From a bacterium (GTDB lineage Bacteria > UBP18 > UBA7526), in NCBI GenBank assembly GCA_030619985.1, contig JAUXAI010000054.1, positions 1 to 7,985 of the forward strand: DNA of 7,985 bases. The letters run 5' to 3'. Both the position numbers and the translations under genes were made by a program. Of the stretch, positions 845 through 6,864 are shown piece by piece. The notes beneath the pieces are model-generated. The model was given only the letters and a program-made list of their open reading frames with translations. It was not told where the DNA came from and did not search any database. Position 1 is the first letter of the stretch. Every line of letters begins with the position of its first letter.

Positions 845-879
845 GTTAACGGTTAACTGCTTACCGTTTACCGTCTTAA
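845..879. repeat. Degenerate heptamer tandem array (hpf-lptB spacer)
   Basis: Five consecutive 7-bp units read on the plus strand: GTTAACG, GTTAACT, GCTTACC, GTTTACC, GTCTTAA. All begin with G and share a G-T/C-T-A/T-A-C core. The array fills the spacer immediately upstream of the hpf ribosome-binding site. A related pair, ACCGTCA and ACCGTAA, lies at 924-937. Together they make most of this 144-bp spacer repetitive. I know of no named family with this unit. Confidence 0.6.
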
Positions 880-897
880 ATCTGCCGTAAACAGCGA

Positions 898-913
898 CCC
901 CGATGAATCGGGG
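898..913. other. Perfect short hairpin in the hpf-lptB spacer
   Basis: CCCCGA (898-903) and TCGGGG (908-913) form a perfect 6-bp stem around the 4-nt loop TGAA (TTCA on the transcribed strand). It stands out as a GC-rich island between AT-rich heptamer repeats. No T-run follows on the transcribed strand, so it does not look like an intrinsic terminator. It could be a recurring intergenic palindrome in this genome. Confidence 0.4.
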
Positions 914-948
914 GAGCGGGTGCACCGTCAACCGTAAACTACCCTTGT

Positions 949-962
949 AACGCTTTAGCGTT
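949..962. other. Palindrome abutting the lptB stop codon
   Basis: AACGCT (949-954) and AGCGTT (957-962) are perfect inverted arms separated by TT. The outer arm touches the first base of the lptB TAA stop (962-964), so the transcript could form a small stem directly after the stop. There is no U-run, and the 2-nt loop makes a stable RNA hairpin doubtful. Confidence 0.3.
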
Positions 963-1687
963 TATTCTAAGGTAAACTTCTCGCCAAGATAGATTTCTCT
1001 GGCCTCTTTACTATTCGCCAGTTCCTGAGAGGTGCCAGAGATAAGAATTTCCCCTTCATACATAATATATGCCCGGTCGGTAATGGCCAGTGTTTCCCGC
1101 ACGCTATGATCGGTAATCAGGACCCCGATCCCCTTCTTCTTGAGTTGAAAGATGATTTCCTGAATATCGGCAATGGCGATGGGATCGATGCCAGTAAAGG
1201 GTTCGTCCAGTAAAATGAAGGAAGGGGTAGTAACCAGAGCTCTGGTGATCTCTACCCTCCTTCTCTCTCCACCAGAGAGGGTATAGGCCCTGTTCTTGGC
1301 AAGGGGGGAGAGATTGAGTTCTGCCAAGAGTTCTTTTAGCCTCTTCTCCTTCTCTTCCTCTGTCAGGTTCAGGGTCTCCAGGATGGCCAGGATATTCTCC
1401 TCAACAGTGAGCTTCCTGAAGATGGAGGGCTCCTGGGCAAGGTAACCGATCCCCTTTCTCGCCCTCTTATACATAGGCAGTCTACTAAGATCGAAGTCGT
1501 CGATAAGTATCTGCCCCCGATTTGGTTTGACCAGCCCCACGATCATATAGAAGGTGGTAGTCTTTCCTGCTCCATTGGGACCCAGGAGGCCAACGATCTC
1601 TCCCTCCGTCACCTCTAAGTTAATATCATTTACCACCCTTCTTCTCTTGTAGGTCTTGACCAAGCCCTGGATCTTTAGGGTCTTCAC
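962..1687 (-). CDS. lptB: LPS export ABC transporter ATP-binding protein LptB
   Basis: A 241-aa ABC ATPase that powers LPS extraction from the inner membrane as part of LptB2FG. All nucleotide-binding motifs are present: Walker A GPNGAGKT (36-43), Q-loop Gln85 in [10 protein letters not shown], signature LSGGERRR (137-144), Walker B ILLDEP (158-163) followed by FTGIDP, and the switch histidine His194 in ITDHSV. Length and the [11 protein letters not shown] and DEPFTGIDP wording fit LptB rather than the LivF/LivG relatives, and position after lptC-lptA confirms it. The start is GTG (1685-1687), with GGAGG 6 nt upstream (1694-1698), a strong site. The downstream gene is hpf; rpoN, often found here, is missing. 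The permease genes lptF and lptG are not in the window. Confidence 0.97.
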
Positions 1688-1737
1688 CCCACTCCTCCTT
1701 TTGTATTTAAATATACCTCACTATGTTCGGCGAAATG

Positions 1738-1777
1738 CGGATGCATACGGATTTGAGCGGATTCAGACGGATGGTTT
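1738..1777. repeat. Decamer tandem array CGGATNNNNN (lptB-lptA spacer)
   Basis: Four in-phase 10-bp units on the plus strand: CGGATGCATA, CGGATTTGAG, CGGATTCAGA, CGGATGGTTT. The first five bases are invariant and the last five vary. The array sits in the 136-bp spacer upstream of lptB. A degenerate opposite-orientation copy follows at 1778-1811 and lets the region fold back on itself. Confidence 0.6.
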
Positions 1778-1791
1778 ATCCGTTTGCATCT
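1759..1791. other. Hairpin formed by inverted CGGAT units
   Basis: ACGGAT (1767-1772) and ATCCGT (1778-1783) form a perfect 6-bp stem around GGTTT. Extending outward gives a 14-bp stem with three mismatches (1759-1772 against 1778-1791). The same left arm also pairs 12 of 14 positions with 1798-1811. The element lies upstream of the lptB ribosome-binding site on the transcribed strand. A role in mRNA folding is possible but unproven. Confidence 0.4.
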
Positions 1792-1823
1792 GCTGCAATC
1801 TGTTTGAATCCTTTCTTCTATAT

Positions 1824-2462
1824 TTATTCAAATTCCGATGCTTTAAATTTTATTTTTGCTTTATTCTCAACCACCACCCGATACTCATCGACATACAGGG
1901 TTATTCTCTCCCCAGTGACCAAGTTCTCTTTTTCTCTTATCTCAGGATTACCAGTCAAGACGGCTTTTCTCTCTTTGTCGAAATAATCGAGGACCTTGCA
2001 GGTGGCAACCACATCATTTCTTACTAACTTCACCCTTCCCGCGGCCCGTAATCTATCCTCTGGTAGAAAGGCCTCTATCTTCTTACTGGTCAGGGTAAAG
2101 TTTTCCTTCTCACTGACCAATTTTGGCTTTCCTGTTGCCATTCCGTACCTTCTATCATGATAGTATTCTATTCTTTCACCTGTTAAGATCATTTTCTGTT
2201 TCTCGTCCTTCATCCAGGCCCGGCCTTCGGCAACCGCCTTATTCTCATCCGGAAAGAGTTTTAGTTGATCACTCTTTAAAGTAGTAGTCCCCTGAACAGC
2301 AACCACATGGCCAGTGAATACCACCACCTCTTTCCCCTTCACCTTAGAATACTCTACCTCATCTGAAGTAATATCCAGAGGGGGACCTTTCTTCTCCGTC
2401 CCCCATGAAGGAAGGGCAAAAAGAACAAAAATCAAAGATAGGAAGATCAGTTTACGGTGCAC
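1824..2462 (-). CDS. lptA: Periplasmic LPS-binding bridge protein, LptA/OstA family
   Basis: A 212-aa predicted secreted protein of the OstA/LptA family, which polymerises into the beta-jellyroll bridge carrying LPS across the periplasm. The N-terminus MHRKLIFLSL then IFVLFALPSW is a Sec signal peptide (basic start, hydrophobic core about 5-18, likely cleavage near residue 21). The mature part shows the repeated beta-strand pattern of the family: PLDITSDEVEYSK (28-40) with TGHVVAVQGTTTLKSDQ, LTGERIEYY (93-101), LTSKKIEAF (124-132) and VTGERITLYVDEYRVVVE (182-199). It is somewhat longer than the E. coli protein (185 aa). The start is GTG (2460-2462), 11 nt inside the end of lptC, with GAAGG 6 nt upstream. 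The overlap suggests coupling with lptC. Family assignment is firm from pattern and context; the symbol rests partly on gene order. Confidence 0.9.
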   Translation of the reverse strand: MHRKLIFLSLIFVLFALPSWGTEKKGPPLDITSDEVEYSKVKGKEVVVFTGHVVAVQGTTTLKSDQLKLFPDENKAVAEGRAWMKDEKQKMILTGERIEYYHDRRYGMATGKPKLVSEKENFTLTSKKIEAFLPEDRLRAAGRVKLVRNDVVATCKVLDYFDKERKAVLTGNPEIREKENLVTGERITLYVDEYRVVVENKAKIKFKASEFE

Positions 2463-3000
2463 TTAAGGCCTTCACCTTTACCTTGACATCCCTTTTTATC
2501 TTCGCATTCTCCAAGTCAGAATCTATTTCCAGACCATAACCTGTGGTTATCCTATCTGGCTCGGTGATCTTGATGAATTCCTCAGTGATAAACTTCCCCT
2601 TCGTCACCTTTCCTGTAGGGGATAGGTAGTGAAGCTCCTCTGTCTCCAGGCGCGAGCCTTTTGTCGAGGTCACGATTACATTCCCCGTAGCTTCCATATT
2701 ATTGGTGGTCATGTCAAGGATTCCCCTCCGGGCAGAAAGGACGGAGGCCAGTTCTCCCTCTTCATAGATGGAGGTCTTGAAGTCCTGAATATAGGTCTTC
2801 TTTATCTTCTCATAGATCTGGGCAGCCTTGGCCTCCAGCTCCCAGGTCTTCACTCCTCCCTCTGTGGCGATGAGTCTAAAGTCTTCTAACTTCTGCTGGG
2901 GGACGGGGATCTCATTTGCCACCCGGGAAAGGGGAGACCTTGAACTACAGCCCCCCAAAACAAAGACTAAAATGACAAGCCCTGATAATATTTTCTTCAC
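2452..3000 (-). CDS. lptC: LPS export periplasmic protein LptC, predicted lipoprotein
   Basis: A 182-aa protein of the LptC family, the membrane-anchored bridge component that receives LPS from LptB2FG and passes it to LptA. The N-terminus (MKKILSGLVI, then LVFVLGGC) is a lipoprotein signal with lipobox L15-G16-G17-C18 and Ser19-Ser20 after the cysteine, so the mature protein would begin at Cys18. The body shows the family pattern: TEGGVKTWELEAKAAQIYE (47-65), ATGNVIVTSTKGSRLETEEL (104-123) and the later GKFITEEFIKI. The GTG start (2998-3000) overlaps the kdsC TGA as GTGA, and the 3' end overlaps lptA by 11 nt. E. coli LptC is held by a transmembrane helix instead of a lipid, so the anchoring here looks different. 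Identity rests on weak family motifs plus a very typical position between kdsC and lptA. Confidence 0.9.
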   Translation of the reverse strand: MKKILSGLVILVFVLGGCSSRSPLSRVANEIPVPQQKLEDFRLIATEGGVKTWELEAKAAQIYEKIKKTYIQDFKTSIYEEGELASVLSARRGILDMTTNNMEATGNVIVTSTKGSRLETEELHYLSPTGKVTKGKFITEEFIKITEPDRITTGYGLEIDSDLENAKIKRDVKVKVKALSAP

Positions 3001-3530
3001 TTCTTCTTGGCCTTTAAGATAATATCTATTGCTTCCCTCACCGCCCCCCCTCCTCCAGGGGCCCGGGTAACATAGTGAACGATGTCTTTGATCTCTTCCA
3101 CCCCATTTGCTGGAGCGAGGGCTAGGCCGGCCTTTCTTAAGGGAGGGATGTCCCCTAGGTCATCGCCGATATAAGCGATCTCTTCATCTTTCAGACCATA
3201 TTTCTTTAAGAGCTTATGATAAATTTCTATCTTAAGAGAGACTCCCTGATAGATTTCGCTTATCTTTAGTTCCTCCGCTCTTCTTTTCACCACTTCAGAT
3301 CTCCGCCCACTGACCAATGCTATGACCAGCCCTTTCTGTAGGGCAAGATAGATTCCCACTCCATCCTGAACATAGAAGTTCTTTAACTCCTCTCCCTTGC
3401 TCCCTAAAATAATGCAACCATCTGTTAGTACCCCATCGACATCCATAATGATCATCTTAATCTTCTTTGCTTTCTCCTGTATTTTTTGCGATATTTTCCT
3501 TCTCACTTTCCCACCTGCTCGCCTGCTCAC
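2997..3530 (-). CDS. kdsC: 3-deoxy-D-manno-octulosonate-8-phosphate phosphatase
   Basis: A small cap-less HAD phosphatase that releases Kdo from Kdo-8-phosphate, the third step of CMP-Kdo synthesis. Numbering from the GTG at 3528-3530 (177 aa), HAD motif I is DVDGVLTDG (nucleophile Asp30, acid/base Asp32), motif II is SGR (Ser74), the motif III lysine is Lys100 and motif IV is GDD (122-124). The C-terminal VTRAPGGGGAVREAIDIIL is diagnostic of KdsC. The start is uncertain. GTG at 3530 gives a basic N-terminus (MSRRAGGKVRR) encoded by an octamer repeat and has no well-spaced ribosome-binding site. A second in-frame GTG at 3504-3506 has AGGTGGG just upstream (3510-3516) and would give 169 aa with the catalytic core intact. 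The gene follows kdsD by 2 nt and overlaps lptC by 4 nt. Confidence 0.95.
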   Translation of the reverse strand: MSRRAGGKVRRKISQKIQEKAKKIKMIIMDVDGVLTDGCIILGSKGEELKNFYVQDGVGIYLALQKGLVIALVSGRRSEVVKRRAEELKISEIYQGVSLKIEIYHKLLKKYGLKDEEIAYIGDDLGDIPPLRKAGLALAPANGVEEIKDIVHYVTRAPGGGGAVREAIDIILKAKKK

Positions 3531-3535
3531 TTTCA
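3504..3535. repeat. Octamer tandem array across the kdsD stop and kdsC start
   Basis: Four in-phase 8-bp units on the plus strand: CACTTTCC, CACCTGCT, CGCCTGCT, CACTTTCA. The array contains the kdsD TGA stop (3533-3535) and both candidate kdsC GTG starts (3528-3530 and 3504-3506), so it encodes the first residues of KdsC. The outer units match the octamer array at the end of kdsA (4705-4736). Confidence 0.6.
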
Positions 3536-4492
3536 GGCGATGCCTTCTTTCAAGAGGTCCCTTTCATCAACGATGCCAATGGGACAATTATCCTCATCCA
3601 CCACCGGTATATTATCAAACCTCTTCTCTTGTAAAATTCTCACCGCCTCTGTGGCCAGCTTTCTCTTAGTGATGGTGGTCGGCTTTTTGGTCATCACTGA
3701 AGAGATCTTCCTCTCTAAAAGATCTTTGTCTTTCTGGAGGTGTCTTCTCAAGTCTCCGTCAGTAAAGAAGCCGATAAGTTTCCCCTCCTTATTCACAACG
3801 CTCACCGCCCCCAGTCTGGTGGAGGTCATGACGAATAAGGCCTCCCTCACTCTCTTATCCTCATCTATCAAGGGGTTCTCCTCCCCTTTTCTCATAACAT
3901 CTTCCACTCTCAACAATAGCTTTTTTCCAATTACTCCTGCAGGATGAAGCCGGGCAAAATCTGCCTCCTTGAATCCCTTCTTGTTCAAGAGGGCAATGGC
4001 CAGGGCATCGCCTAAAGCTAACATGGCCGTAGTGGAGGCAGTGGGTGCCAAGTTGAAGGGACAAGCCTCTCTCTTCACTTTAGCATTCAAGACCGCATCC
4101 GATTCCTTAGCCAAAGAAGAATCTGGATTTCCGGTAAAAGTAATTAGTCTCACTCCCAGCCTTTTTATGAGGGGCAGGATCTTCTTCATCTCCTCCGTTT
4201 CCCCACTATAGGATAGAGCAAGGACAATATCCTCCTTCATGACCATCCCCATATCCCCATGCATCCCCTCTACCGGGTGGATGAAGAAAGCGCTGGTTCC
4301 GGTGCTCGATAGGGTGCTGGTGATCTTTCGGCCAATGAGTCCGCTCTTCCCCATGCCAGTGACGATCACTCTTCCCTTACACTTACTAATCAGCTCTACC
4401 GCTTGAGAGAAGTTATCATCTAGTTGTTCTATCAAATTCTTAATCGCTTCTGACTCTATCTCCAATACCTTCTTGGCATCTCTAATGCTCAT
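3533..4492 (-). CDS. kdsD: D-arabinose 5-phosphate isomerase (KdsD/KpsF family)
   Basis: An isomerase converting ribulose-5-phosphate to arabinose-5-phosphate, the first committed step towards Kdo. Numbering from the ATG at 4490-4492 (319 aa), an N-terminal SIS domain (about 30-170) contains GMGKSG (46-51), MHGDMGMV, SGETEE (96-101), REACP with Glu142, and LHPAG with His183, the pattern of catalytic residues known in the family. Two CBS domains follow (about 195-255 with FTDGDLRR, and 264-319 with GIVDERDLL). This SIS-CBS-CBS architecture and length match E. coli KdsD. The start was chosen because AAGGAG (4499-4504) lies 6 nt before this ATG. The alternative ATG at 4505-4507 adds five residues but has no ribosome-binding site. 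It directly precedes kdsC and follows kdsA after a 220-bp repeat-rich spacer. Confidence 0.96.
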   Translation of the reverse strand: MSIRDAKKVLEIESEAIKNLIEQLDDNFSQAVELISKCKGRVIVTGMGKSGLIGRKITSTLSSTGTSAFFIHPVEGMHGDMGMVMKEDIVLALSYSGETEEMKKILPLIKRLGVRLITFTGNPDSSLAKESDAVLNAKVKREACPFNLAPTASTTAMLALGDALAIALLNKKGFKEADFARLHPAGVIGKKLLLRVEDVMRKGEENPLIDEDKRVREALFVMTSTRLGAVSVVNKEGKLIGFFTDGDLRRHLQKDKDLLERKISSVMTKKPTTITKRKLATEAVRILQEKRFDNIPVVDEDNCPIGIVDERDLLKEGIA

Positions 4493-4498
4493 CCTACT

Positions 4499-4504
4499 CT
4501 CCTT
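4499..4504 (-). promoter_or_regulatory. Ribosome-binding site deciding the kdsD start
   Basis: AAGGAG on the minus strand, 6 nt upstream of the ATG at 4490-4492. It overlaps the codons right after the alternative upstream ATG (4505-4507), so if it is used the protein starts at the downstream ATG. Confidence 0.65.
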
Positions 4505-4535
4505 CATTTTACATTGAACATTTTTGCTAACAGTT

Positions 4536-4630
4536 AATATCGGTTAATAAGGAAGCCTTTCGCTAACGCTCAAGAACCTTGTTTCTTCGTTAACACTCAG
4601 AAATAACGGTTAATATTGGTTAATATCGGT
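4536..4630. repeat. Interspersed TAATATCGGT decamers and a 27-bp-spaced 18-mer repeat
   Basis: Two adjacent 10-bp units TAATATTGGT (4611-4620) and TAATATCGGT (4621-4630) match a further copy, TAATATCGGT followed by TAATA, at 4536 onward. Between them lie two 18-bp copies, TTCGCTAACGCTCAAGAA (4559-4576) and TTCGTTAACACTCAGAAA (4586-4603), identical at 14 of 18 positions and 27 bp apart. Together they form the kdsD-proximal half of the kdsD-kdsA spacer. Confidence 0.5.
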
Positions 4631-4642
4631 TGCTTTCAAATC

Positions 4643-4663
4643 GTCCCTCGTCCTTCATCCTTC
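4643..4663. repeat. Heptamer tandem array x3 (kdsD-kdsA spacer)
   Basis: Three in-phase 7-bp units on the plus strand: GTCCCTC, GTCCTTC, ATCCTTC (GAAGGAT-type units on the transcribed strand). It abuts the nonamer array that follows. Confidence 0.5.
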
Positions 4664-4664
4664 A

Positions 4665-4697
4665 CCAATCCACCCAATCCAACTAATCCAACTAATG
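4665..4697. repeat. Nonamer tandem array (kdsD-kdsA spacer)
   Basis: Units on the plus strand: CCAATCCAC, CCAATCCAA, CTAATCCAA and a partial CTAATG, all in phase with period 9. The sequence is strongly strand-asymmetric, almost without G on the plus strand. Confidence 0.6.
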
Positions 4698-4704
4698 TAC
4701 TACC

Positions 4705-4736
4705 CACTTTCCCACTTTCTCACTTTCTCACTTTCT
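4705..4736. repeat. Octamer tandem array at the kdsA 3' end
   Basis: Four in-phase units on the plus strand: CACTTTCC, CACTTTCT, CACTTTCT, CACTTTCT. The array contains the kdsA TGA stop (4728-4730) and its last codons (Arg-Lys). Three units are identical, making this the least degraded array in the window. The same octamer occurs at 3504-3535. Confidence 0.75.
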
Positions 4737-5549
4737 TACTATCCTGTCTATCTCTTTCACCTCTTTTAAAAGTTTGGGCACTTCCTCTAACCTCAGCATA
4801 TTGGGGCCATCGGATAATGCCTTATCTGGATCGGGATGGGCCTCGAGGAATAGGGCATCTACCCCACAGGCCACCGCTGCTCGGGCAAGATAGGGAACAT
4901 ACTCCCTATTTCCACCGGTTGCTATCCCCACTCCCCCGGGAAGTTGAACGCTATGTGTGGCATCGAAGACTACTGGATATCCGAAGGAACGCATGATAGG
5001 CAGGGACTTCATATCAACTACTAAATTATTATAACCAAAGGTCGTTCCCCTCTCTGTCAACAGGATATCTTTGTTCCCCACTGATTCAATCTTTTCAATG
5101 ACATTTTTTACATCCCAGGGAGCTAAGAACTGCCCCTTCTTAACATTCACCGGCTTTCCTGCCCTGGCCACGGCTAAGACGAAGTCTGTCTGGCGACATA
5201 AGAAAGCGGGGATCTGTAGGATATCTGCTACCTTACTAACTACGGATACATCTTCTCTCTCATGGACATCAATTAGAAGAGGAATGTTCAACTCTTTTTT
5301 TATCTTTCCTAAGATCTCAAGGCCTTTCTTTAGGCCTGGACCGCGATAGGACTTAAGCGATGTCCGATTTGCCTTATCATAGGAAGATTTAAAGATAAAG
5401 GGTATTCCCAATTCGCTGGTAATCTCTTTTAGTCTCTTTGCTGTTTGAAAGGTCTGCTCCTCTGTTTCAATGACACAGGGCCCAGCAATCAAAACCAAAG
5501 GATTATCTCCTCCAATCTTAATCTTGCCCACTTTAATCTCTTTAGTCAT
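4728..5549 (-). CDS. kdsA: Kdo-8-phosphate synthase, metal-dependent type
   Basis: A 273-aa aldol-type synthase condensing arabinose-5-phosphate with phosphoenolpyruvate to Kdo-8-phosphate in the cytoplasm. Family landmarks in order: LIAGPCVIE (20-28), FKSSYDKANRTS (53-64), RGPGL (69-73), DVHE (94-97), CRQTDF (118-123), KKGQFLAPWDV (137-147), ERGTTFGYNNLV (166-177), FDATHSVQLPGG (195-206) and the LSDGPN end motif. Cys25, His199, Glu236 and Asp247 each sit exactly 14 residues after the four metal ligands of the Aquifex enzyme (C11, H185, E222, D233), pointing to the metal-dependent class rather than the Asn-type E. coli class. The ATG start overlaps the kdsB stop as ATGA. The 3' end, including the stop, lies in an octamer array. 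Confidence 0.97.
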   Translation of the reverse strand: MTKEIKVGKIKIGGDNPLVLIAGPCVIETEEQTFQTAKRLKEITSELGIPFIFKSSYDKANRTSLKSYRGPGLKKGLEILGKIKKELNIPLLIDVHEREDVSVVSKVADILQIPAFLCRQTDFVLAVARAGKPVNVKKGQFLAPWDVKNVIEKIESVGNKDILLTERGTTFGYNNLVVDMKSLPIMRSFGYPVVFDATHSVQLPGGVGIATGGNREYVPYLARAAVACGVDALFLEAHPDPDKALSDGPNMLRLEEVPKLLKEVKEIDRIVRK

Positions 5550-6286
5550 TTTCGCTCTCTTTTAATCATTGCTTTTACCTTTTCTAAATCCTCTGGAGTG
5601 TCGACACCGATAGAATCGCATTCTGTCTCCACTACCTTTATCCTATAGCCATTCTCCAGAACGCGCAACTGTTCCAAGCCCTCTATTTTCTCTAAAGGAG
5701 TTGGTTTCATCTGGGCAAATTCTAATAAAAAATTTTTTCGGTAGCTATAGAGACCAAGATGTTTATAAGCCGTGATCCTGGATCTTGGATCCTGGAGCTT
5801 AGAATAAGGGATTAGGGAGCGGGAGAAGTAGAGGGCGAAGTTATCCTTATCAAAGACTACCTTGACCACATTGGGGTCTTCTATTTCCTCTTTCTTAGCT
5901 ATTTTATAGGCTAAGGTGGCCATAGGAATTTTGGGATTATCAACTAGAGATTTGATTGCTTCATCTATCGCTTGGGGTTCGATGAGTGGTTCGTCTCCCT
6001 GAATATTGGCCACAATATCAACATCTAAATCCTTTGCTGCTTCCGCCACTCTCTCTGTTCCAGAAGACAAGGAAGGAGAAGTTAAGACTGCTTCTGCCCC
6101 AAACTCTCTTGCCTTTTTCAGGATACGTTCATCATCTGTAGCAATAATTACTTTTTCCAAAGTTTTTGCCTGAGATGCTTTTTCCCAGACATGCTGGATC
6201 ATAGGCTTTCCTGAGATATCTGCTAAAGGCTTGCCAGGAAAACGTTTTGAACCATACCTTGCGGGAATGACACCGATGGCTTTCAT
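5546..6286 (-). CDS. kdsB: CMP-Kdo synthetase (3-deoxy-manno-octulosonate cytidylyltransferase)
   Basis: A 246-aa cytidylyltransferase activating Kdo with CTP to CMP-Kdo, the donor for lipid A glycosylation. Motifs: IPARYGSKRFPGKPL (7-21, nucleotide binding), ATDD (49-52), SGTERV (75-80), NIQGDEP (94-100) with the Mg-binding Asp98, YKHLGLYSYRK (174-184), EQLR (205-208) and GVDTPEDL (227-234) with Asp229 as the likely second metal ligand. Length is typical. The ATG (6284-6286) is preceded by AAAGGAG at normal spacing. The gene ends in an ATGA overlap with kdsA. Residues about 164-172 (LQDPRSRIT), in the variable loop before YKHLG, are encoded by a 7-bp tandem repeat like those in the spacers, but the frame and flanking motifs are intact. 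Confidence 0.97.
   Translation of the reverse strand: MKAIGVIPARYGSKRFPGKPLADISGKPMIQHVWEKASQAKTLEKVIIATDDERILKKAREFGAEAVLTSPSLSSGTERVAEAAKDLDVDIVANIQGDEPLIEPQAIDEAIKSLVDNPKIPMATLAYKIAKKEEIEDPNVVKVVFDKDNFALYFSRSLIPYSKLQDPRSRITAYKHLGLYSYRKNFLLEFAQMKPTPLEKIEGLEQLRVLENGYRIKVVETECDSIGVDTPEDLEKVKAMIKRERK
5774..5801. repeat. Heptamer tandem repeat inside kdsB
   Basis: Three in-phase 7-bp units on the plus strand, GATCCTG, GATCTTG, GATCCTG, followed by a degraded GAGCTTA. The three good units total 21 nt, exactly seven codons, so the reading frame is kept. They encode part of the segment LQDPRSRIT just before the conserved YKHLG motif. Confidence 0.6.
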
Positions 6287-6310
6287 CTTCTTGCTCCTTT
6301 AGGCGCAATC

Positions 6311-6398
6311 AGTTGATAAGTCGGTTAGTCAACAAGTTGATTAGTTAATAAGTCCTTGTTAACTTGTTTCCTTGTCAACTTGTATCCTTGTTAACTTG
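6311..6398. repeat. Octamer tandem array filling the kdsB-rfaE2 spacer
   Basis: Eleven in-phase 8-bp units on the plus strand: AGTTGATA, AGTCGGTT, AGTCAACA, AGTTGATT, AGTTAATA, AGTCCTTG, TTAACTTG, TTTCCTTG, TCAACTTG, TATCCTTG, TTAACTTG. The first six share AGT. The last five alternate as a 16-bp higher-order repeat ending in CTTG. The array enters the rfaE2 3' end and supplies its TAA stop (6391-6393). Confidence 0.7.
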
Positions 6399-6864
6399 CT
6401 TTCTGAATCTTATTGATGAGGGCGCTTGTTGAATAGCCTTTCACCTCCGGGATGATAATTACTTTTCCCCCATGGGCTTCTACCGTATCCCTTCCCACCA
6501 CCTCTTCTTCTCTCCAGTCTCCACCTTTAACCAAGACAGTGGGAATGATTTTGTCAATTAAATTCTTGGGGGTCGATTCATCAAAAATAACAATATAATC
6601 CACTACTTCTAAAGCGCTTAAGATTTCTGCCCTATCCTTTTCCTTAACCAGGGGGCGATTAGGACCTTTTAAGGATCTCACTGAATTATCGCTGTTCAGG
6701 CCGACGATTAAAGTGTCACCTAACTTCTTCGCCTCTCTTAAATATCTTATATGGCCGAGGTGTAGAATATCGAAGCAGCCATTGGTGAAGACGATCTTCT
6801 TACCCTCCTTCTTCAGCCCTTCGACTATTTTCATTAACTCATCTAATATCTTTAACTTCTTCAT
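6391..6864 (-). CDS. rfaE2: D-glycero-beta-D-manno-heptose 1-phosphate adenylyltransferase
   Basis: A 157-aa stand-alone nucleotidyltransferase equivalent to the C-terminal half of E. coli HldE (also called HldC). It adenylylates heptose-1-phosphate to ADP-D,D-heptose. Motifs: FTNGCFDILHLGHIRYL (26-42) with the HxGH signature at 35-38, GLNSDNSV (55-62), RPLV (70-73), RAEIL (78-82), VKGGDW (112-117) and the C-terminal YSTS (144-147). Length is typical for the split form. The start ATG (6862-6864) overlaps the kinase stop as ATGA, so the two halves are translationally coupled although not fused. No strong ribosome-binding site is seen, consistent with coupling. The last codons and stop lie in the octamer array of the following spacer. 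Confidence 0.95.
   Translation of the reverse strand: MKKLKILDELMKIVEGLKKEGKKIVFTNGCFDILHLGHIRYLREAKKLGDTLIVGLNSDNSVRSLKGPNRPLVKEKDRAEILSALEVVDYIVIFDESTPKNLIDKIIPTVLVKGGDWREEEVVGRDTVEAHGGKVIIIPEVKGYSTSALINKIQKAS

Follow-up and report, generated by a model that had tools for sequence, protein, structure and literature searches.

We analysed a window of 7,985 nucleotides, the whole stretch presented above, from a genome of the candidate phylum UBP18 (1.25 Mb in 91 contigs, of which the window is contig C56), and examined the short tandem arrays of 7- to 10-bp units found in the spacers of its gene cluster. These arrays are probably copies drawn from a rather small repertoire of miniature intergenic blocks, most of them two-armed and palindromic, which are copied ready-made, recombined and replaced. 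This is directly supported by a genome-wide excess of arrays, the reuse of unit words, the two arms, the kept order of units, the existence of filled and empty versions of a same junction, and the absence of a pairing constraint. As for the mode of copying, blocks built from degenerate 7-, 8-, 9- or 10-bp units would be copied into the junctions of genes, downstream of a stop codon and ahead of the ribosome-binding site that follows, at places tolerating stop-codon-rich DNA. They would afterwards recombine among themselves, giving composites, and be replaced. The copying may proceed by templated insertion driven by microhomology, or by mobilisation in trans, rather than by slippage at the site itself; slippage may have produced the first arrays and may still occasionally alter unit numbers.

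Arrays were scored as runs at lag p (match +1, mismatch -1.5), against 500 dinucleotide shuffles of each spacer, in a genome-wide sample of 1.149 Mb, taken as stretches, whose 568 spacers total 100.5 kb. Genes were called as greedy longest open reading frames (ORFs), and some spacer ends are approximate. The excess of period-7-to-10 arrays was overwhelming: 172 of the 568 spacers held at least one, versus 1.1 in the shuffles and 8 of 600 coding pieces, the resulting share (about 30%) referring to spacers of at least 60 bp. At periods 7, 8, 9 and 10 respectively, 105, 78, 17 and 19 arrays were found in spacers, 0.4, 0.2, 0.1 and 0.4 in shuffled spacers, and 6, 2, 0 and 0 in coding pieces of equal length. 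The 568 spacers contained no array at periods 4, 5 and 6, and 3, 2 and 1 at periods 11, 12 and 13. Autocorrelation of the spacers peaked at lags 7, 8, 9, 10, 14 and 16, and coding sequence had no such peaks, 3-periodicity apart. An earlier note, made on the window alone, had pointed to these arrays and left it to be seen whether shuffled spacers would score equally and whether other spacers would lack arrays. Neither is the case, the arrays being specific to spacers, present genome-wide and limited to 7-10 bp. Within the window, the period and place it gave for the arrays were right, including an octamer array on the kdsD/kdsC junction (period 8, p = 0.010), and all arrays except the decamers of the lptA-lptB spacer beat the shuffles of their own spacer (p between 0.002 and 0.012). 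Tandem Repeats Finder (TRF) recovered the same window arrays as the lag-p runs. The decamers at 1738-1777 were not significant as a tandem array alone (spacer 1688-1823, p = 0.15, 500 shuffles), but they belong to a strong two-armed hairpin. Orthologous spacers in an independent metagenome-assembled genome were up to 96-100% identical, and the arrays are therefore not an assembly artefact.

Unit words are reused across the genome. The 251 arrays fell into a few word clusters (AAACAGT, 33 arrays; AACTTATT, 25; AAAAATT, 20; AACGGTG, 15; AAAGTGAG, 11; AACAAGGGT, 10; AACTGATATT, 7; and others), so that the first impression of unit sequences mostly differing between spacers gives way to word families present at tens of loci. 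For 169 of 186 array spacers, other parts of the genome gave a dispersed match (E<1e-6), with a median of 87% identity over 75 bp. When 163 arrays were compared with all other spacers, the best identity was 0.860 for the real arrays and 0.821 after permutation of their units (p = 2e-13). This better match of the real order suggests that the order of degenerate unit variants is inherited between loci; independent array birth would not give that. Composites are also found at several places. The block at 4658-4744, in which nonamers and octamers had been listed as separate arrays, is a single unit present at three loci of one genome: it recurs at C45 (87% over 87 bp, ungapped) and C10 (82% over 85 bp), both copies keeping the linker GGGTAGTAAATT between the two arrays, and it is 96% identical in G002, a member of the same genus. 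The hairpin at 6306-6401 has copies at C68 (84% over 96 bp) and C86 (88% over 73 bp, ungapped); copies of its segment 6306-6398 at other loci keep the succession of unit variants TTAAC, GGATAC, TTGAC, GGAAAC, TTAAC, and four copies of this rfaE2-kdsB-type block share their unit-variant order. The dispersed matches, the kept order and the composite at three loci all speak against the proposal that a recurrent process creates the arrays de novo, without spread.

Many arrays are two-armed, an arm of unit U being followed by an arm of its reverse complement with the same period (ACAAGGGTG units then TAAACCCCT..., or AAGTTGAC units then ...TCAACTT), and many contribute one arm to a large imperfect hairpin, which extends from the stop codon upstream almost to the following start. 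Inverted repeats scoring above the 99th percentile of shuffles were present in 44% of array spacers versus 19% of other spacers. The word AAGTTRAY was found in sense in 20 spacers, in antisense in 25 and in both orientations in 11, for about 1 expected by our own arithmetic from the sense and antisense spacer counts; for AGTAACC, these numbers were 28, 19 and 12, and for both words the co-occurrence is well above chance. The first unit of 5'-arm words lies at a median of 1.5-8 nt past the upstream stop codon and often provides the stop codon itself, and the last unit precedes the next start by 28 nt for CTT-arm words and 15 nt for ATCTGTG. Hairpins of the window are those at 845-955, 1739-1811 and 6306-6401; the patchwork at 4600-4740 is not structured (fold z +1.4). 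Snap-back copying between arms was considered and found no support. The in-register match between arms was 0.74, versus 0.63-0.65 one unit off, but the register was picked as the best one and adjacent units of one arm resemble each other almost as closely (0.66-0.69). Separately, the centre of an octamer hairpin (L083:3394-3533, compared with L233) shows opposite-arm words in one sister species, as if flipped.

Spacers turn over between relatives, as the earlier note had suggested looking for. Relative to G002 (median protein identity 91%, 4-fold divergence about 0.21; the comparisons take in part of its genome), 73 orthologous spacers measured 60 bp or more; 49 of them could not be aligned, and the remaining ones had a median divergence of 4.6%. 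Some junctions harboured quite different blocks, and some were filled in one species and empty in the other. The kdsA-kdsD spacer measures 220 bp here and 148 bp in G002, where the same composite is found without the non-periodic element E1 (Table 1); it is 97 bp long with another word family in G005, and G001 and G003 have no spacer. Likewise, the lptA-lptB spacer, 136 bp here, is absent in G003. From the empty kdsA-kdsD junction of the relatives (GATAGTAAGGAGAGTAGAATGAGT), it follows that the block lies between the end of kdsA and the ribosome-binding site of kdsD.

Features of the window are collected in Table 1. Its genes are all on the minus strand, and we take them to be, from ORF content and order and general knowledge of the families, a gmhA fragment, rfaE1, rfaE2, kdsB, kdsA, kdsD and kdsC from the right, then leftward lptC, lptA, lptB, hpf and an HPr-like ORF at the left edge. 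This gene order was confirmed by tblastn against relatives. In a KdsA scan, the closest named relative was bacterium UBP18_UBA7526 (L111; KdsA identity 88%), and a plasmid search with KdsA returned distant homologues only. Within the whole-genome set, only 5 other genomes have the family in common with this one, the next nearest belonging to other phyla.

Table 1. Repeat features of the window. p values are from 500 shuffles of the spacer; percentages are nucleotide identities of copies at the loci named.
Positions	Strand	Feature	Periodicity, fold and copies
845..955	-	Heptamer two-armed array, word GTTTACG/GTTAACG, filling the lptB-hpf spacer	Spacer 818-961: best period 7 at 845-874, p = 0.002; fold z -2.0; L052 83% over 83 bp, L066 78% over 91 bp
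894-920	-	GC-rich inner hairpin GCGACCCCGATGAATCGGGGGAGCGGG, within the 845..955 heptamer array	97% at L073
1739..1811	-	Decamer hairpin GGATTCAAACAGATTGCAGCAGATGCAAACGGAT[AAACC]ATCCGTCTGAATCCGCTCAAATCCGTATGCATCC with 34-bp arms, lptA-lptB spacer	Inverted repeat score 18; fold z -3.6; 7 dispersed genomic matches, 54-119 bp, 70-83%; no such spacer in L111
3498..3536	-	Octamer array GGGAAAGTGAG/GAGCAGGT, immediately 3' of the kdsD stop codon	Spacer 3480-3545: best period 8 at 3500-3528, p = 0.010; 92% over 36 bp at L205, plus further copies
4546..4606	-	Non-periodic dispersed element E1 (TTTCTGAGTGTTAACGAAGAAACAAGGTTCTTGAGCGTTAGCGAAAGG...), inserted within the decamer array	Not in the G002 spacer; 98% over 61 bp in the G001 rfaE2-kdsB spacer; 89-100% at L196, L096, L095
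4602..4640	-	Decamer array, word ACCGATATTA / GGTTAATATC, and short non-periodic link	TRF period 10, run 4602-4631
4641..4664	-	Heptamer array GATGAAGGACGAGGGACG	Period 7 run; aligns with G002
4658..4744	-	Composite of a nonamer array (TTAGTTGGA) and an octamer array (GAGAAAGT) joined by the linker GGGTAGTAAATT; extends over the kdsA stop codon	Spacer 4508-4745, p = 0.002: period 10 (4602-4631), 7 (4641-4664), 9 (4665-4696), 8 (4703-4743)
6306..6401	-	Octamer two-armed hairpin filling the rfaE2-kdsB spacer; unit order AAGTTAAC AAGGATAC AAGTTGAC AAGGAAAC AAGTTAAC AAG / CTTATTAA CTAATCAA CTTGTTGA...	Spacer 6287-6390: period 8 at 6355-6383, p = 0.012; fold z -3.1

Long simple repeats with units of 5-11 bp are known in scattered bacteria, heptamers being the commonest long unit in most of the genomes studied, and a polymerase footprint has been proposed as the explanation (Mrazek 2007, as summarised in PMC4679880). 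Replication slippage with a footprint of about 7-10 bp, followed by mutation, might thus have made each array in place from a local seed. Some arrays do look locally seeded (for instance at G000 L106 11890, AAAGTAGGAAAGTAGG 5' of a start), and one-unit indels occur (10 bp at L106 9403). We nevertheless hold this origin, which the earlier note had put forward, to be unlikely as the main one. Young arrays made by slippage should be nearly perfect, with homogeneous units, and here the agreement between units was 0.80 in lineage-specific arrays versus 0.79 in shared ones, with only 2 of 62 lineage-specific arrays near perfect. Since the arrays that differ between species are as degenerate as those they share, fresh slippage is not their main source. 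A word present in up to 33 arrays, a unit order retained from locus to locus, and composites that occur in several copies are all unexpected under slippage as well.

The hairpins might instead be functional RNA elements, such as intercistronic insulators or stabilisers, selected for base pairing, and the stems reaching from stop codon to just before the start, the strand bias of some words (GRGAAAGTG 19:0 and ATCTGTG 29:9 in favour of sense) and the lower divergence of retained spacers relative to 4-fold sites would fit such a role. Base pairing itself, however, does not appear to be what is kept. Selection for pairing would predict an excess of GU-type over AC-type mismatches in the sense strand, and slower change at paired sites. 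Among stem mismatches, GT was enriched 1.25-fold and AC 1.23-fold over expectation, that is, alike; paired sites changed at a rate similar to that of unpaired sites (5.45% vs 6.1%); and 3 compensatory changes were counted versus 39 changes to AC and 34 to GU. With GU- and AC-type mismatches equally enriched and paired sites no slower, the hairpins do not seem to be kept as RNA structures, and selection on RNA structure is rejected as the main force. In addition, hairpins were about equally dense whether the spacer was co-directional, convergent or divergent (2.6, 1.9 and 2.4 per kb), some junctions have no spacer in close relatives, and an Rfam scan gave no match. An RNA element therefore seems to us quite improbable, and the substitution patterns lend no support to the mRNA insulation that had been considered for the spacers. 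By analogy with the role suggested for TAACTGA repeats in Beggiatoaceae (MacGregor 2015, PMC4679880), the single-arm repeats could also be binding sites for proteins or ribosomes, acting post-transcriptionally. Some words are indeed strand-biased and adjoin starts or stops, but words and periods are many, both arms are present in the hairpin classes, junctions differ among relatives, and stop-rich words are confined to gene ends anyway. Such a role is very unlikely.

The copying of ready-made blocks, which we prefer, also has points against it. Neither Y1_Tnp/RAYT (PF01797) nor RVT domains were found in four UBP18 genomes (G000-G003), which are incomplete and in which other transposase families were not searched, so that explanations based on REP/RAYT or on reverse transcriptase are left without an enzyme. 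Block alignments revealed no fixed ends or clear target duplication, the best candidates being duplications of about 3-9 bp seen by eye at kdsA-kdsD and at L067. Permuted arrays still find 82% matches, and the sharing of words blurs the distinction between similarity and common origin. Arrays counted as lineage-specific could be losses in the sister species. Finally, the alignable spacers diverge less (median 4.6%) than the flanking 4-fold sites (about 23%); such low divergence is not required of neutral blocks, and the alignment filter favours conserved ones. Among spacers of L011, L066, L096 and L075 compared with G002, some are 98-100% identical although divergence at the 4-fold sites beside them reaches 0.3-0.4, and this could reflect either recombination or constraint.

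REP, REPIN and BIME sequences and miniature inverted-repeat transposable elements (MITEs) are, like the blocks, small palindromic dispersed intergenic repeats without genes of their own. The blocks differ from them in having no fixed termini or terminal tags, and a RAYT-mobilised palindrome finds no counterpart in the four genomes scanned for this family. The same genome does contain a MITE-like family, CCCGCACC...GGTGCGGG, with terminal inverted repeats CCCGCACCTTT...AAAGGTGCGGG and about 30 copies of 46-137 bp (L024:9507-9586, L063:6881-6928 and 28 other places). Many copies are flanked by duplications of the TGAA/TTCA/ATGA type, and some lie in an ATGA stop/start overlap where both genes retain their stop and start. 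This family has the terminal inverted repeats and TGAA/ATGA duplications of MITEs; in the array blocks, no constant terminal inverted repeat or duplication was seen. A further dispersed palindromic family of about 100 bp, GGTTAAGGTAAGGTAGTGGGTTTGGTAGTTAGG...AAAGACCAACTA...CCTAACC, was observed at L209:17362-17513, L022:3609-3842, L100:15019-15201 and L210:5817-6000, and is in sense orientation in 6 of 7 cases.

The earlier note knew of no named repeat family that fits, but close precedents exist in STRR, TAACTGA and GGGAATC repeats. STRR of the heterocystous cyanobacteria Calothrix and Nostoc are, as cited in PMC4692102, intergenic short tandem heptamers with several words per genome. The arrays described here agree with them in forming tandem heptamers at many loci and in being intergenic (counts above), and differ by their additional periods of 8, 9 and 10, by their strongly degenerate units and by their presence in about 30% of the spacers that are 60 bp or longer. 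TAACTGA repeats (Beggiatoaceae, Cyanobacteria, Bacteroidetes; PMC4679880) are likewise intergenic direct repeats, patchily distributed across phyla, a distribution held to be horizontal, and restricted to gene ends by their stop codons; they consist of one word, mostly just 5' of starts, with only one indirect repeat, whereas we find many words, two-armed hairpins, and 5'-arm words after stops. The GGGAATC / GGGGA(T/C)T repeats of Xanthomonas and Nostoc (PMC4692102) share degenerate intergenic heptamers and a variation of length and sequence at the same junctions, and 70-75 convergent inverted array pairs are reported per Xanthomonas genome. They are a single G-quadruplex word, compared with about ten frequent words here, at four periods and generally not G-rich. 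In the P6b stem of the Nostoc trnL intron (TDNGATT, NNTGAGT; PMC4476775), a hairpin stem is similarly made of degenerate heptamers whose motif classes were independently replaced, but this is a single locus inside a self-splicing intron. Given these heptamer families in cyanobacteria, Beggiatoaceae, Bacteroidetes and Xanthomonas, together with trnL P6b, this kind of repeat was already known.

Some of the words extend beyond the family. When 241 genomes were searched for exact patterns, each pattern being also run in reverse for control, AAGTTRAYAAGTTRAYAAG had 53 matches in the window's own genome, 0-29 in its relatives, 56 in G218, which belongs to another phylum, and 0 in all others. ACGCAGATNNACGCAGAT matched in 12 unrelated genomes (control 0), and AATGYAAAATGYAAAATG in 8, with up to 15 matches (control matches in 3). 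GTTWACGGTTWACGGTT and AGTAACCAGTAACCAGT matched in one unrelated genome each and carry little weight, because their controls matched in 2 and 3 genomes. Three of the five words tested occurred together in G188. Contamination of G218 was rejected as the source of its AAGTTRAY repeats, its proteins being at most 63%, and at the median 39%, identical to those of the window's genome. Two-armed blocks also exist in G218 itself, and 13 spacers of that genome match spacers of the window's genome at E<1e-5, versus 0 for reversed sequences, some of these being tRNA or coding-like stretches. An element TTGTCATTCCGAAGGAGTGAAACGACTGAGGAATCT...AAATGACA was also observed in G218 (L213:3400-3830), along with several spacers carrying a GC-rich hairpin CCCCCTACTTAATCTCCCCCCTGGAAGGGGGGAGAAAGAGAGGGGGG inside octamer arrays. 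This word sharing may reflect either horizontal spread or convergence. It is conceivable, if rather unlikely, that the two-armed blocks are horizontally moving non-autonomous DNA that crosses phyla by means of an unrecognised mobiliser or of a machinery for templated DNA synthesis, the footprint of which would set the 7-10 bp period. If so, the AAGTTRAY octamers of G218, the AATGYAAA heptamers of eight genomes, the ACGCAGAT decamers of twelve and the three words of G188 would be its signature.

What is new here is that a single small genome combines many words with four periods; new, too, are the probable copying of ready-made blocks and the absence of a pairing constraint. Polymerase slippage is the usual account given of long simple bacterial repeats with units of 5-11 bp; in this genome, the degeneracy of lineage-specific arrays, the preserved succession of units and the presence of composites in several copies speak for a spread of pre-formed blocks. 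Much of the intergenic DNA consists of these blocks, which stand between genes that touch or overlap one another in relatives. The sharing of words across phyla calls for an explanation, and the clean filled and empty junctions offer a system for testing where repeats of this type, and bacterial spacers in general, come from.

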